From NCBI RefSeq assembly GCF_000272405.2, contig NZ_AJZM02000402.1:65796-129795 (forward strand): DNA of 64,000 bases. Direction: 5' to 3'. The notes below the pieces were generated by a model. The model was not told the origin of the DNA. It saw only the letters and a list, made by a program, of their open reading frames with translations, and did not search any database. The position numbers and the translations under genes are program-made. Below are positions 3,830 through 60,631 of this stretch, one piece after another. Every line of letters begins with the position of its first letter. Positions within the stretch are counted from its first letter, which is position 1. Source of the DNA: Vibrio tasmaniensis 1F-187 (GTDB taxonomy: Bacteria; Pseudomonadota; Gammaproteobacteria; Enterobacterales; Vibrionaceae).

Positions 3830-4426
3830 TTAGCGCGTTAATGTGTTAATAACTTCAACAATTGGCGCTGGCGTTAACGTATGCGGCACTTTGGTAATCA
3901 GCGTGCCATCAGGTTTTAAAAAATAGAAATATGAGCTGTGGTCTAGGGTGTATTCCAACTCTGAACCTTCAAGCTTGGTCTTTCTAAAAATAACACCGTA
4001 GTTGTGTGCAAGCGTTGTTGTCACATCTAACGGGCCACTTAATCCTTCCATCATTGGGTGGAAGTATTGTGCGTATTCGTATGAGGCTTCAGCGGCATCA
4101 CGTTCTGGATCGAGAGAAACAAACATCGGGCGAATCTTGGCTTTTGCTTCATCAGAAATCTGGTTAAGTGCTCCGGCTAACATTGCTAGAGAAGTAGGGC
4201 ACACATCTGGGCAACGTGTGAAACCAAAATAAACGATACGAATTCTGTCATCGGTTTGGTCAAAGATTTCAGTTGGCTGGTTATCTTTGCCGAAAAGGGT
4301 TGTTGCGGAGAATTGTTGTTTTGCCGCGTGTTGTTTTTGAGCTTCGTTTTGCCCATCAAGATAACTTTTAACGCCAAAGCCAAGGACAAAAGCGACAACC
4401 AATGCTAACGACCAATTTCTACTCAT
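3830..4426 (-). CDS. SCO1/SenC-family copper and thiol-disulfide protein
   Basis: Membrane-anchored periplasmic thioredoxin-fold protein that helps load copper into cytochrome c oxidase. It has an N-terminal transmembrane anchor (about residues 6-20). The metal-binding CPDVC (Cys72, Cys76) follows the strand VYFGFTR, and the distal copper ligand is His163 in LDHSSYF. The length of 198 aa is typical. The start codon overlaps the stop of the upstream gene by 4 bp (ATGA), so the two are translationally coupled. Followed by PCuAC. Confidence 0.92.
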   Translation of the reverse strand: MSRNWSLALVVAFVLGFGVKSYLDGQNEAQKQHAAKQQFSATTLFGKDNQPTEIFDQTDDRIRIVYFGFTRCPDVCPTSLAMLAGALNQISDEAKAKIRPMFVSLDPERDAAEASYEYAQYFHPMMEGLSGPLDVTTTLAHNYGVIFRKTKLEGSELEYTLDHSSYFYFLKPDGTLITKVPHTLTPAPIVEVINTLTR

Positions 4427-5066: not shown

Positions 5067-5987
5067 TTAGTCAGCGTTGCGCTCTGCAAATTTCTCTAAC
5101 CCAAGGACCAGAGCAATCGCTACAAGCATCATCAAAATAGCCATTACTAGCTGTGAAGGTTGAGAAGTGACGGCTTCAAAATCAAACGGTGACAAGTTTT
5201 CTTGAATCAGAGGAACTTGCTCACCTTTAGAGTTAGTGCGCCAGCTGATCGTTTCTTTCCACGGCCAAATCTTCGGCAGTGTACCGATCATCAAACCAGT
5301 CAAGAATACTAATGTGAAGTCGCGGAATGAGCGCAATAACCAAGAAAGTACGTGAGAGAAAGTCAGCAGGCCAATCACACAGCCACCAAGGAATAGGGCA
5401 AGTACATCAACCTGAAATTCTTTAACGGCACCAAGTACCGGGCCGTACATACCAATTAATAGCAGAATGAAGCTCCCTGAGATACCTGGCAAAATCATCG
5501 CACAGATTGCAATCGCACCTGCAATGAGAATATTGATACCGGTAGGTTCCATTTGCAGCGGCTTAAGCACGGTAATGCTGTAAGCGAAGGCGACACCAAG
5601 CAGCAAAAATACGAATCGAATCATATCGCGCTTTTCTACTTGTTTAAGAATATGGAAAACCGACACCAAGATAAGGCCAAAGAAGAAAGACCATAGTGGA
5701 ACTGGGTGGGTGACTAATAACCAAGAAATCAGTTTTGCAAATGTCGCAATGCTCGTGAATACGCCTGCGAACAGTGAAATTAGGAAAAAACCATTGATGT
5801 GGCTAAACGCGGCTTTGAAACCTTCACGCTTCCATAGTCCAAGTACGCTAGGGTTAATTCTTCGAATGCTTTCTAGTAGCGTATCGTAGATACCAGTGAT
5901 GAATGCGATGGTTCCGCCCGACACGCCAGGTACAACGTCGGCTGCGCCCATTGCCATGCCTTTGAAAAAAGTACTTAAGTAGTTCAT
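5067..5987 (-). CDS. DUF368-family polytopic membrane protein
   Basis: Inner-membrane protein with about eight or more hydrophobic segments. It opens with the family signature MGAADVVPGVSGGTIAFITG and has the internal half-repeat ILPGISGSFILLLIGMYGPV. Some DUF368 members are now discussed as undecaprenyl-phosphate (C55-P) translocases; I treat that as possible here. The frame is open from 6026, but I prefer the ATG at 5987 (306 aa) because the family starts close to the FFKGMAMGAAD block. Neither start has a strong ribosome site. Single gene with its own terminator. Confidence 0.85.
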   Translation of the reverse strand: MNYLSTFFKGMAMGAADVVPGVSGGTIAFITGIYDTLLESIRRINPSVLGLWKREGFKAAFSHINGFFLISLFAGVFTSIATFAKLISWLLVTHPVPLWSFFFGLILVSVFHILKQVEKRDMIRFVFLLLGVAFAYSITVLKPLQMEPTGINILIAGAIAICAMILPGISGSFILLLIGMYGPVLGAVKEFQVDVLALFLGGCVIGLLTFSHVLSWLLRSFRDFTLVFLTGLMIGTLPKIWPWKETISWRTNSKGEQVPLIQENLSPFDFEAVTSQPSQLVMAILMMLVAIALVLGLEKFAERNAD

Positions 5988-6199
5988 TGCTTCATAGAGT
6001 TGAGAGTGATTTTGTGCAGTATACAAACTTTAGTGTAAAAAAAGTATGAATATGCCTTTGGCGAGGTGCTTTATTACCTCTTTAATTGTAAGGCAATACG
6101 TTGATGTGAACATCTGCCTTACATTTAAAATACAACTGCTTGGTGTCTTATTATTATCGGCGGCAGTGAAACCTGTTTTCTATCGATATTGCATCTTGG

Positions 6200-6225
6200 T
6201 TGCATTATGCAAATGCACTTTGCAA
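6200..6225 (+). promoter_or_regulatory. Two LuxO-type binding sites upstream of qrr
   Basis: TTGCATTATGCAA at 6200-6212 fits the LuxO motif TTGCA-N3-TGCAA exactly. ATGCACTTTGCAA at 6213-6225 fits with one mismatch. They are adjacent and lie about 90-115 bp upstream of the predicted start, a normal distance for sigma-54 activator sites. Confidence 0.8.
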
Positions 6226-6286
6226 TTCGCATCATGAATTAGAGGTTTTTATGCGATGCAGGGCTTATAAAATGGCTGAATTAAAG

Positions 6287-6303
6287 TTGGCACGCTAACT
6301 GCA
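6287..6303 (+). promoter_or_regulatory. Sigma-54 promoter of qrr
   Basis: The element runs TTGGCACG...CTGCA, with the -24 GG at 6289-6290 and the -12 GC at 6301-6302, exactly 10 nt apart as sigma-54 requires. It predicts initiation near 6314, which is where the conserved Qrr 5' end TGACCC begins. Confidence 0.9.
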
Positions 6304-6313
6304 TTATATACAT

Positions 6314-6424
6314 TGACCCTTCTTAAGCCGAGGGTCACCTAGCCAACTGACGTTGTTAGTGAACTTATGATTTGTTCACAAATATATAGAGCCAATCGCG
6401 ATTATTGCGGTTGGCTATTTTTTT
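6314..6424 (+). ncRNA. qrr: Qrr quorum-regulatory small RNA
   Basis: Hfq-dependent sRNA of the Vibrio quorum-sensing cascade. It is activated by phosphorylated LuxO with sigma-54 at low cell density and pairs with the mRNAs of the LuxR/HapR master regulator, AphA, LuxO and others. The conserved core GGGTCACCTAGCCAACTGAC and the following GTTGTTAGTGAA are present. The 5' stem (TGACCC/GGGTCA) and the 3' terminator hairpin GCCAATCGC/GCGGTTGGC with a T7 tail define about 111 nt. Promoter and LuxO sites are in place upstream. Which numbered Qrr this is cannot be decided from the window. It lies between DUF368 and malT, both on the other strand. Confidence 0.95.
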
Positions 6425-6481: not shown

Positions 6482-6512
6482 AAAAAAAAGCCAGTCACCA
6501 TAGGCAACTAGC
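6482..6512 (-). terminator. Terminator of malT
   Basis: On the minus strand GCTAGTTGCC pairs with GGTGACTGGC (including three G-U pairs) around a TAT loop and is followed by T8. It lies just beyond the malT stop codon and the short tandem repeats. Confidence 0.75.
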
Positions 6513-6521
6513 TTAAGCTTT

Positions 6522-6565: not shown

Positions 6566-9289
6566 TTAGTACCCCATCAACTGCAGTAAATTCTCCGCTG
6601 TGCTGATCGCTTCTTTACGGTTAGCAATGTTTAGTTTTTGGTAAAGGTTACGGATGTGAGTCTTGATGGTGGTACCTGCGACATCGAGTTCTTGAGCGAT
6701 CTGCTCGTTACTGAACCCTGAATAGATCAAACCAAGTACTTGCCATTCACGCTGGGTGAGTGGGCTTGTGCGCACAAGTTCAGGAATGTTTGGGTGATTG
6801 ACTAAGTTTTCGACAAAGTCTTCATCAAAGTGAACCGAGCGGCTGCGTTGGGTGGTCGAGATATCTTTCATGATCTGTTGAGCGCGATGGCGTTCTAAGT
6901 CACCTAAGCCAGGCTTGTTACTCAACTTATCCAAGATATGTCCGATAGTCCCGCCGTCTACTAAGAAGTTGCCGACCATACCGGTTTGGTTAGTCATATG
7001 AAGCGCTTCTTCAAGTAGCACGCGTGCGCTGTCTTCATCGTTAATTTGTGTACGTAACACGGCTTCAACGATCAAGTTTCGGTTGGTGTCTGTAATCAGA
7101 TGTGAACGCTGAGCTTCACTCTTAAGGAAAGTCAGCGCTTCTTCCGCTTCTTCATACTGCTCAAGAATGATGTGAGCGCGAACGATGTTTCTCCATTGCA
7201 GTTGGCAGAAGTGGTTGCTTGCCGATTCAGGTCGAACAGCCACATTCAACCAATCACGTATCGCCTCTTTATTGCCTTTTACTTGCCAAAAAAGAATCAA
7301 AGAAAGAGAAGCGTTCGCCGTCCAGTCCACGTGGTAAGTCGATTGACGCAATAGGTGCTGAATTTGGTCGATAAACTTAGATGCTTTATCAATTTCACCG
7401 CGACTCAGTGAAATACGAGCCAGCATTGAATAGCTGTGAAGGTGCTTACTTGGTGAATGGTGACCAAGGATATCCAAGCCTTTGTAACAGCACTCTTCCG
7501 CTTCATCTAATCGGTTCCAACACCAGAATATTTGAGCTCTAACACGCAGTAAGAATTCATGCAGAGGCACGTATTTTAGCTGGTGTTCTTCGATCAATTT
7601 GAACGCACTGTCTTGCAGCTCGAATGCCGCTTGAACGTAACCCTGTGCAATTAAGATCTCGCTCTGTTGTAGAATTGCCCAAAGCGCTTGGTGGTAAACT
7701 TGATACTGGCGTGCAAGTTTTTCTGTTTGCTGCATCATCGGCAGTGCACGGCTCAAGTTGCCCATTACGTGATTGACTTCACCAACAACAGACGTGGCGA
7801 CAATTCGGCTACGATAAACGGTGGTGTTCAGCTGACTTAGCGAAAGCTCTGCCAATTCCAAGGCTTTTTCAGGTTCATTGCTGTTAATAGCAACTTGCGC
7901 GCGCAGGGCGTTGTATTGCCCTTGTTGTTGAGTATCGAGTTCAATATTTCGAGCTTGATATTGTGTTTCAGCCTCTTCCAATAATGTCCCTACTTGTTCG
8001 TAGCGGTGCTGACTTTGTGCTAGCCAAGCTCGTAACATGGACAGTTTAGGGTCGCTGTAAAGTTGATCCGTAGTCAGTTGCTTGATCGCCATCTCTAACG
8101 AGGAAAGCTCGCCTTGGTTGAACATCGGCCAACCGTGGTCTGTCAGTATTTGAATGATCAGTTCTGGGTCTTCAGCGCGCTGTGCATGGCGTAGTGCTTG
8201 GTGTGGTGTGTCTTGTTTAATCCACGCCTTCGCGGCACTTCGGTGCAACTCTGCTTCTTGTTGAGGGATTCGAGCTTGACGCTCATGTGCCAAAAATTCA
8301 CCAAACAGGTTATGGAAACGATACCAGTTCTTTTCGCCTTCAAGCGGGTAGATGAATAAACCGAATCGATTTAATGATTCGATCATACCCAGTGCGTCTT
8401 CACGCTGCGTTAGCGCACAAACCAGTTCGTCGTTGAAGTGGTCAAGCACTGAACACTGCATCAAGAACTGTCGAGTTTCTTTGTCTAACAGGTCGAAAAC
8501 CTCTTCAACCAAGTAGTCCCAAAGATGGGCTTGATTAAAGTGGGAGAAGGACTCAGCAGACTGCGCCAGCGTGCGTTTTTGATGTTGGGCTTGTAGCGCA
8601 ATAAGTTGAAGTGCAGAAGGCCAACCCTCTACATAGGTACAAATACTGTCTGCCGTTGTGTCATCAATACCATCGGCAACACGCTGATTAAAAAAGCGCG
8701 TCGTCTCTTCGGTATCAAAAGCCAGCGAGTCATTACCTAATTCGATCATTAAGTCTCGAACGCGAAGGTTTGCCGTACCTAGGGGTGGTGTACCACGACT
8801 GGTTACAACTAGCGTGAGATTGTCGGGCATGTGTTTGAGGAAAAAGCGCATTGCTTCTTGAATGTCATCATTGTTGACTAAATGGTAGTCGTCTAAAACA
8901 AGAAAACATTCATGATGATAGTCCGACATCTCGGCGAATACTTCGCTCAATAAAGAATGCAGCGATGAAAACTGTCGTTTCTCTGCCAGTTTTTGGGCAT
9001 TGGGACAGGAATTTTGAGTCGCTTTATTGAGTGATTGGAGTAGGTAGTTGATAAAACGGAAGGCATCGTTGTCACTATCATCGATGCTGTACCAACCCAC
9101 ATTCGGCTTATCTAACAGCCACTGTGCAGCCATGGTGGTCTTGCCATAGCCCGCAGGAGAACGGAACAATACAAGCTTATAGCAATCTGCGTTCTGGAGC
9201 AGATCGAGAACCCTAGGTCGTAGGATTGCATTATGTAAGCGGCCGGGACGAGTCAGTTTCGAAGGGATCCACATATCGAAGTTTTTCAC
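6566..9289 (-). CDS. malT: MalT, maltotriose-responsive transcriptional activator
   Basis: ATP- and maltotriose-dependent activator of the maltose/maltodextrin regulon (STAND-class LuxR-type regulator). The 907 aa compare with 901 in E. coli. The N-terminal NTPase has Walker [10 protein letters not shown] (about 44-52) and Walker B FLVLDDYH (about 129-136). The middle is a long helical repeat sensor. The C-terminal LuxR helix-turn-helix ([15 protein letters not shown] to NRKEA, about 835-895) binds MalT boxes. It diverges from malP, and its likely targets malPQ, glgB, malK and malEFG are all in this window. Confidence 0.96.
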
Positions 9290-55675: not shown

Positions 55676-55781
55676 CTAGCTTGTCCTCGATCGATCAAAT
55701 TTTAAGTTTTACTGCTTATCATTATAAGGAATTTTTGGGTCAGCAGTAACTGTAGGAATTGGTAAGTATTGAGTGAGTAAG

Positions 55782-60077: not shown

Positions 60078-60100
60078 GCTGTCCTTATAAGAAAGACAAA

Positions 60101-60135
60101 AGAGCGACCGTTAGGTCGCTCTATATTGGCATTTT
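60101..60135 (+). terminator. Hairpin after malG
   Basis: AGAGCGACC and GGTCGCTCT pair perfectly around GTTA. The T-run (GGCATTTTTATT) starts only some 8 nt later, so termination may be partial and some transcripts could continue into the next structured region. Confidence 0.7.
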
Positions 60136-60279
60136 TATTACATCACTTGGTTTGGCCGCCGATCAGTAATAAAAATAACCCTCAGGTTACGCATAGCTGG
60201 CTACTAATCAGGTTCCTTACGCTATTAATGATTAGTGGTTTTTGTAACTCTAACCCAGGTACTTACTTGGGTTTTTTTA
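60123..60279 (+). ncRNA. MicX-like small RNA at the 3' side of malG
   Basis: In V. cholerae the sRNA MicX overlaps and extends beyond the 3' end of the malG gene and is cut by RNase E into a shorter stable form. Here the 175 nt after the malG hairpin hold no protein but are structured. ACTAATCA pairs with TGATTAGT around 60200-60237. A clear terminator (AACCCA / TTGGGTT, then T7) ends at 60278. The 5' end is a guess; a longer precursor could begin inside malG. Identification rests on position, the terminator and recalled synteny, not on alignment. Confidence 0.5.
60252..60279 (+). terminator. Second terminator downstream of malG
   Basis: CCCAGGTA and TACTTGGG form the stem, followed by T7. 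It lies about 175 bp past the malG stop and defines the 3' end of the putative sRNA. The following 60280-60631 shows only short TCTCTA-type repeats and no gene. Confidence 0.8.
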
Positions 60280-60631
60280 TGCCCGCTACTTTTATCTCTA
60301 TCTCTATCTCAGTCTTTTTGGTTTCTTTCAGTCATTAAATACTGAAGTACCTCTTTCCTGGATTTTTCCGGTTTCATCTCTCTAATTGAAGACATCAACG
60401 AGTCTCACAAATCAGACACTCAGTATAGGGGGCCACAGCTCTATTGATATATGTGTAATATTTCCATGCGTGATACTTCAATAATTTGCATGCAACGGAT
60501 CGGTCTATTACACAGAAAGTGCCTATAAAGGCAGGCTCGTGTTAATTTTTGTGGTGGGTATTCTCGGTAGTTATTGATTTAGTGGTAAATATTTCAAAAA
60601 GGGAAGGAGAAAAGGAAGAGGTGATGTGAGA

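Follow-up and report, generated by a model that had tools for sequence, protein, structure and literature searches.

The closest described relatives of the locus analysed here are qrr2 of V. harveyi/V. campbellii (VIBHAR_04846) and qrr2 of V. parahaemolyticus (intergenic region VPA1623-1624), named according to the accessible part of PMC3323551. The same part of this source reports a LuxR/OpaR box about 150-170 nt upstream of qrr2 in V. harveyi and V. parahaemolyticus, but a qrr2 without LuxR box in V. vulnificus, so that the box does not define the gene. V. parahaemolyticus and V. cholerae are stated to share the genomic locations of qrr1-4 (PMC8630636, accessible text); accordingly, V. cholerae qrr2 would fall into the slot between malT and popT. 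For V. anguillarum, the available sections of PMC3352281 describe two sites for VanO (LuxO-type) in qrr2 alone among its four qrr genes, together with low expression; this gene may be the same orthologue as the qrr2 analysed here.

A cmscan of the window (the whole stretch of DNA analysed, 64 kb) against Rfam revealed three families above their cut-offs, among them Qrr (RF00378), matched at 6314-6424 (+) with 112.3 bits (cut-off 50; E 6.5e-21) and covered end to end (model positions 1-108 of 108). This covariance search had been proposed as a check by the initial annotation, and the core, 5' stem and terminator claimed there were all recovered. The predicted transcript of 111 nt starts with the long form of 5' stem-loop 1 (6314-6337, +; nt 1-24 of the minimum free energy structure, in agreement with the Rfam alignment), followed by the conserved target-pairing core CCTAGCCAACTGACGTTGTTAGTGAA (6338-6363, +), which comprises invariant alignment columns of 11 malT-slot Qrr genes. 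Another stem-loop and an intrinsic terminator (6390-6424, +) follow, the latter with a stem at 6390-6416 and then a U tract, ATTTTTTT; this order is the usual Qrr layout. The predicted fold has a free energy of -38.3 kcal/mol (z -5.43), and none of 200 shuffled sequences was equally stable. Positions 6314-6424 (+) are thus confirmed as a complete, full-length Qrr sRNA gene. The locus is an ordinary, already known gene, qrr2 at its usual place; protein-only annotation would miss it, and a Splendidus-type genome gains a correctly numbered qrr2.

The draft genome, which consists of 435 contigs, contains four Qrr matches over the cut-off (RF00378), and no fifth copy was found in this search. We numbered the window copy qrr2 because the Qrr beside malT in V. 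campbellii (L066) bears, at -164, a LuxR box identical to the one that PMC3323551 gives for V. harveyi qrr2 (accessible Table 2), and because in the same slot of another genome (L096 in G038) the V. parahaemolyticus qrr2 reverse primer given in that paper is matched with 0 mismatches. LuxR box, primer and neighbours support the assignment of the window copy as the orthologue of V. harveyi and V. parahaemolyticus qrr2, and it has the RNA, the sigma-54 promoter and the LuxO sites in common with L066. L066 likewise displays popT at the promoter side and malT at the terminator side; the window qrr2 begins with TGACCC and the V. campbellii copy with CGACCC. The suggested comparison with the numbered V. 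harveyi qrr genes hence pointed to qrr2, by slot and by the L066 box. The initial annotation was also right to regard the window gene as an extra copy other than the luxO-linked qrr1, as the qrr1 of this genome lies elsewhere, beside luxO on contig C66. Qrr1 shares core and mechanism with the window qrr2, but the C66 gene is shorter (93-nt Qrr match). Contig C14 carries a Qrr next to a cytosine permease gene, the product of which is 86% identical to that of a V. campbellii locus (L092) with the exact V. harveyi qrr3 box. The C113 copy has as its neighbour a gene for a DUF3612-type protein that shares 83% identity with its DUF3612 counterpart in L068, a V. parahaemolyticus plasmid copy in which the three V. 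parahaemolyticus qrr4 primers are matched with 0 mismatches. Judged by these neighbours, the copies on C66, C14 and C113 fit qrr1, qrr3 and qrr4, respectively. The qrr3 and qrr4 genes are, like qrr2, full-length with a sigma-54 promoter and LuxO-like sites, whereas their neighbours differ.

Upstream of the window qrr2, the correctly spaced sigma-54 promoter and the two LuxO sites claimed before were found at 6288-6303 and 6200-6225. The promoter (TGGCACG-N5-TGCA, +) is the sole exact match to the sigma-54 pattern used in the whole 64 kb; with one mismatch allowed, four matches were found against 2.25 expected. Its GG (6289-6290) and GC (6301-6302) lie at -25/-24 and -13/-12 relative to base 6314. 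This spacing agrees with the earlier statement that the promoter gives 6314 as +1 and a TGACCC start, although the 5' end remains a predicted one. LuxO site 1 (TTGCATTATGCAA, 6200-6212, +) has 0 mismatches and abuts site 2 (ATGCACTTTGCAA, 6213-6225, +) with one mismatch; a third, overlapping LuxO-like site with two mismatches is present at 6220-6232. Taken singly, LuxO sites (at most one mismatch) occur at chance level in the window (six found, 5.0 expected). Two sites within 150 nt of which one is perfect, however, never arose when the upstream 150 nt were subjected to 20,000 mononucleotide shuffles; along the + strand, 12 of 6385 tiled segments contain such a pair, and every one of the 12 overlaps the qrr2 locus. 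A chance origin of the pair was rejected on these grounds.

Alternatively, transcription of the same RNA might depend little on sigma-54 and start from another promoter, overlapping or not, which we regard as unlikely. Tague et al. 2022 state in their title that expression of V. parahaemolyticus Qrr2, the same orthologue, is independent of sigma-54, so that demanding a sigma-54-dependent transcript, as the initial annotation had done, is too strict. A weak sigma-70-like match (9/12) at 6287-6314 overlaps the sigma-54 promoter of the window gene, but such sites are near chance in this region (four found, 2.1 expected), and the second hexamer of this one ends at the predicted start. Moreover, the 21 named relatives with a malT-adjacent Qrr all display GG-N10-GC at -25, and all 21 have at least one LuxO site (up to one mismatch) within 150 nt.

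On the promoter side, qrr2 is flanked by a divergent gene for a popT-type polyprenyl-phosphate transporter (5067-6026, -; NCBIfam NF052564, 501.7 bits, cut-off 400), which we take to be a DUF368 protein. On the other side lies the convergent malT (6566-9289, -; NF003420, 1409.6 bits, cut-off 537) with a probable terminator of its own at 6488-6514 (-), separate from that of qrr2 in the terminator analysis of the locus. The encoded MalT is 97-98% identical to that of named V. splendidus, V. lentus, V. crassostreae and V. chagasii, and we consider the strain Splendidus-type because of this identity. A Qrr downstream of malT, on the opposite strand, was detected in 21 of 29 named MalT loci, each of the 21 with a popT homologue beyond the Qrr. 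The fetched stretches of the other eight (L040, L047, L048, L050, L052, L054, L055 and L061) gave no Qrr match; the contig of L040 stops 24 bases past the malT match. Of 100 relatives' genomes searched, 61 belong to the same genus as the window, and the 58 genomes in which a Qrr was found are all among these. The Qrr lies within 3 kb downstream of malT, always convergent, in at least 20 of 61 genomes with MalT. In V. cincinnatiensis, 5 kb around malT contained no Qrr match.

All of 13 fetched malT-slot or related stretches carry both Qrr and popT. Among 63 Qrr loci from such genomes (the best-scoring ones, about 3 kb each, with some places represented twice), 32 have popT within about 1.5 kb of the Qrr, and nine of these 32, but none of the others, extend as far as malT. 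In genome G051, malT is 16 kb off and qrr2 still adjoins popT. The steadier neighbour of qrr2 is popT, not malT. The emphasis placed before on the position next to malT needs to be shifted in this respect, although malT is indeed the convergent neighbour. Similarly, the strain is of the Splendidus type as proposed, but the slot is not peculiar to Harveyi/Splendidus-type vibrios, as it is also occupied in V. albus (L058); popT-linked Qrr genes were further seen in L126 and L139. In Salinivibrio (L052), a distance of 3.2 kb separates malT from popT and no Qrr match was obtained, so that qrr2 may have been inserted into a malT-popT junction that is older than itself. One locus (L100, genome G003) displays two tandem Qrr copies between popT and malT, starting near 3865 and 4260 (+) about 400 bases apart.

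The convergent arrangement, with only some 140 bases between the RNA gene and malT in many relatives, could also be taken to mean that the RNA is a local malT regulator that acts on maltose use through an antisense or a linked mechanism. The two transcripts are, however, predicted not to overlap and to end at a terminator each, and where malT has moved off, as in G051, qrr2 retains popT; with no predicted overlap and a synteny that breaks, cis-regulation of malT was rejected as very improbable.

The described V. harveyi qrr2 and the window qrr2 differ in the LuxR feedback box. With a matrix built from 20 sites taken from Table 2 in PMC3323551 (training scores 11.7-19.0), the box of V. harveyi qrr2 was not detected upstream of the window gene (best score 5.3 in -230 to -100), and no credible LuxR box was found in the 314 upstream bases (best score 5.6). 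In five close relatives (L036, L053, L056, L057 and L060), a LuxR-box-like site at -175 scores 11.2, whereas its counterpart in the window (about 6130-6155) reaches only 5.3. LuxR feedback on qrr2 may be a difference between close strains. The undetected box, the partial redundancy of Qrr copies (PMC8043402, accessible part) and the V. anguillarum qrr2, a possible orthologue that is undetectable on Northern blots in the available part of PMC3352281, might speak for a silent, decaying copy, but this was rejected and appears very improbable, as the RNA elements (core, stem 1 and terminator) and the upstream elements (promoter and LuxO sites) are all intact and all 111 bases are identical in five other loci.

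We consider it very likely that the locus as a whole is the qrr2 of a Splendidus-type Vibrio, a LuxO/sigma-54-driven, Hfq-dependent sRNA of low cell density. The genome codes for LuxO (843.1 bits, NCBIfam cut-off 800) and for a LuxR/HapR/OpaR regulator (403.6 bits, cut-off 350), and genes for sigma-54 and Hfq are present. The AphA candidate is one PadR-family protein, for which no NCBIfam model scored above its cut-off. The luxR leader contains GTTGGCAAGG directly before the start codon, and the start of luxO contains TGGCTAGG; both fit the Qrr core. The core-target alignment scores were equalled by shuffled targets in 23 of 200 cases for luxR, 10 of 200 for aphA and 49 of 200 for luxO, and in a permissive duplex ranking 39 other start regions in the window and 119 in other loci came above the known targets. 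From the Qrr family we infer that the window qrr2 is expressed, that LuxO binds its upstream sites, that the RNA depends on Hfq and that it acts on each of these targets; what Qrr2 and its stem-loop 1 do is taken from the accessible part of PMC8043402. At low cell density, phosphorylated LuxO would bind at 6200-6225 and drive sigma-54 RNA polymerase at 6288-6303, which would yield an Hfq-dependent RNA of about 111 nt. Its 26-nt core would pair with luxR/hapR mRNA for repression, with aphA mRNA for activation, for which the long stem-loop 1 would be required, and with luxO mRNA for feedback; at high density, Qrr2 RNA would fall away.

Four plasmid records carry Qrr genes as well. Those of V. 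vulnificus pFORC54 (L069:6001-6113) and of a V. navarrensis conjugative plasmid (L071:5001-5111) precede umuD and the gene of a Y-family polymerase by about 100 bases; a GG-N10-GC scan did not find the sigma-54 -12 GC in either, and LuxO-like sites remain. The Qrr genes of V. tritonius pMA35 (L070:5001-5113) and of V. parahaemolyticus (L068:6001-6121), records filed as plasmids, lie beside a DUF3612 gene.

The window region, used as a DNA query, matched one phage record, Aliivibrio phage vB_Alvi_H905, at an unannotated place about 40 bases ahead of a gene that scores as holin, and a pattern scan of IMG/VR revealed two further phage stretches. Using the conserved 20-base leader just upstream as bait, with the seed excluded, we obtained 10 stretches on nine viral contigs and hits in two of 329 Vibrionaceae genomes (contigs of 41,040 and 43,202 bases). 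Together with the H905 phage, the bait finds amount to 12 distinct leaders. In 11 of them the 8-base Qrr seed CCTAGCCA is located 42-46 bases in and is followed by a terminator; L153 has no seed. The leaders are related and form 10 groups at 85% identity, nine of them with the seed, which stands out since the preceding bases average just 43% identity between group representatives. The whole 26-base core is present in four leaders and a partial or interrupted core in two more (L034 and L155). An Rfam Qrr scan of the 12 leaders placed five over the 50-bit cut-off, L110 (74.5 bits), L065 (73.8), L156 (64.6), L151 (62.2) and L111 (54.1), and L034 below it (43.0), with no match at E 0.1 in the remaining six. 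The Qrr-like RNAs are predicted at L034:3987-4074 (+), L110:2364-2456 (+), L065:5833-5925 (-), L156:7674-7770 (-), L151:1752-1848 (+) and L111:2361-2457 (+), each as a leader just upstream of lysis genes; L149, L150, L152, L154 and L158 are seed-only forms. In L065, the one contig scanned for genes, the next genes score as holin, endolysin and terminase. This position recalls that of lambda 6S RNA and of the StxS RNA of Shiga phages, and the carriers seem to be Vibrio/Aliivibrio phages of a lambda-like group.

Ahead of the three phage copies examined (L034, L064 and L065), neither a sigma-54 nor a LuxO site was found. In our judgement there is about an even chance that these phages have adopted the Qrr seed and that the phage leader is a Qrr mimic free of LuxO/sigma-54 control, which would push the host to the low-density state or act on luxO/luxR messages. 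It is also possible that the seed serves antitermination or pausing. CCTAGCC is absent from the fetched stretches of L159-L162, phages with related terminases (one Vibrio, three Aeromonas), a weak control as the lysis leader of the Aeromonas phages was not located; the lack of the seed in these and in L153 suggests that it is dispensable for the other duties of the leader. From the nucleotide patterns described, we infer that the phage promoter is active, that the RNA is made and what it does, and the operon is a late one by appearance. If the mimic reading is true, a phage sRNA would exploit the quorum-sensing RNA signal of the host; for host Qrr RNAs, a driving role in the lysogenic conversion by phage VP882 is already reported (accessible part of PMC11315295). 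The larger value of the window locus is indirect, in that its core could be traced into phage and plasmid collections and led to Qrr-type RNAs on mobile elements. Among the matches listed, no published phage Qrr was recognised, in a literature search that is weak on subscription papers. When viral sequences were scanned with a looser pattern, six stretches emerged; two of them had been found before, and the other four (L144-L147) were rejected as chance matches inside coding sequence. A DNA search of the 329 genomes with the phage leader matched mostly ordinary chromosomal Qrr genes.

Apart from Qrr, the window contains a MicX sRNA match (RF01808) at 60087-60280 (+) with 193.7 bits (cut-off 75) and a malK-II cis-regulatory RNA match (RF03008) at 55709-55759 (-) with 69.7 bits (cut-off 52.9).
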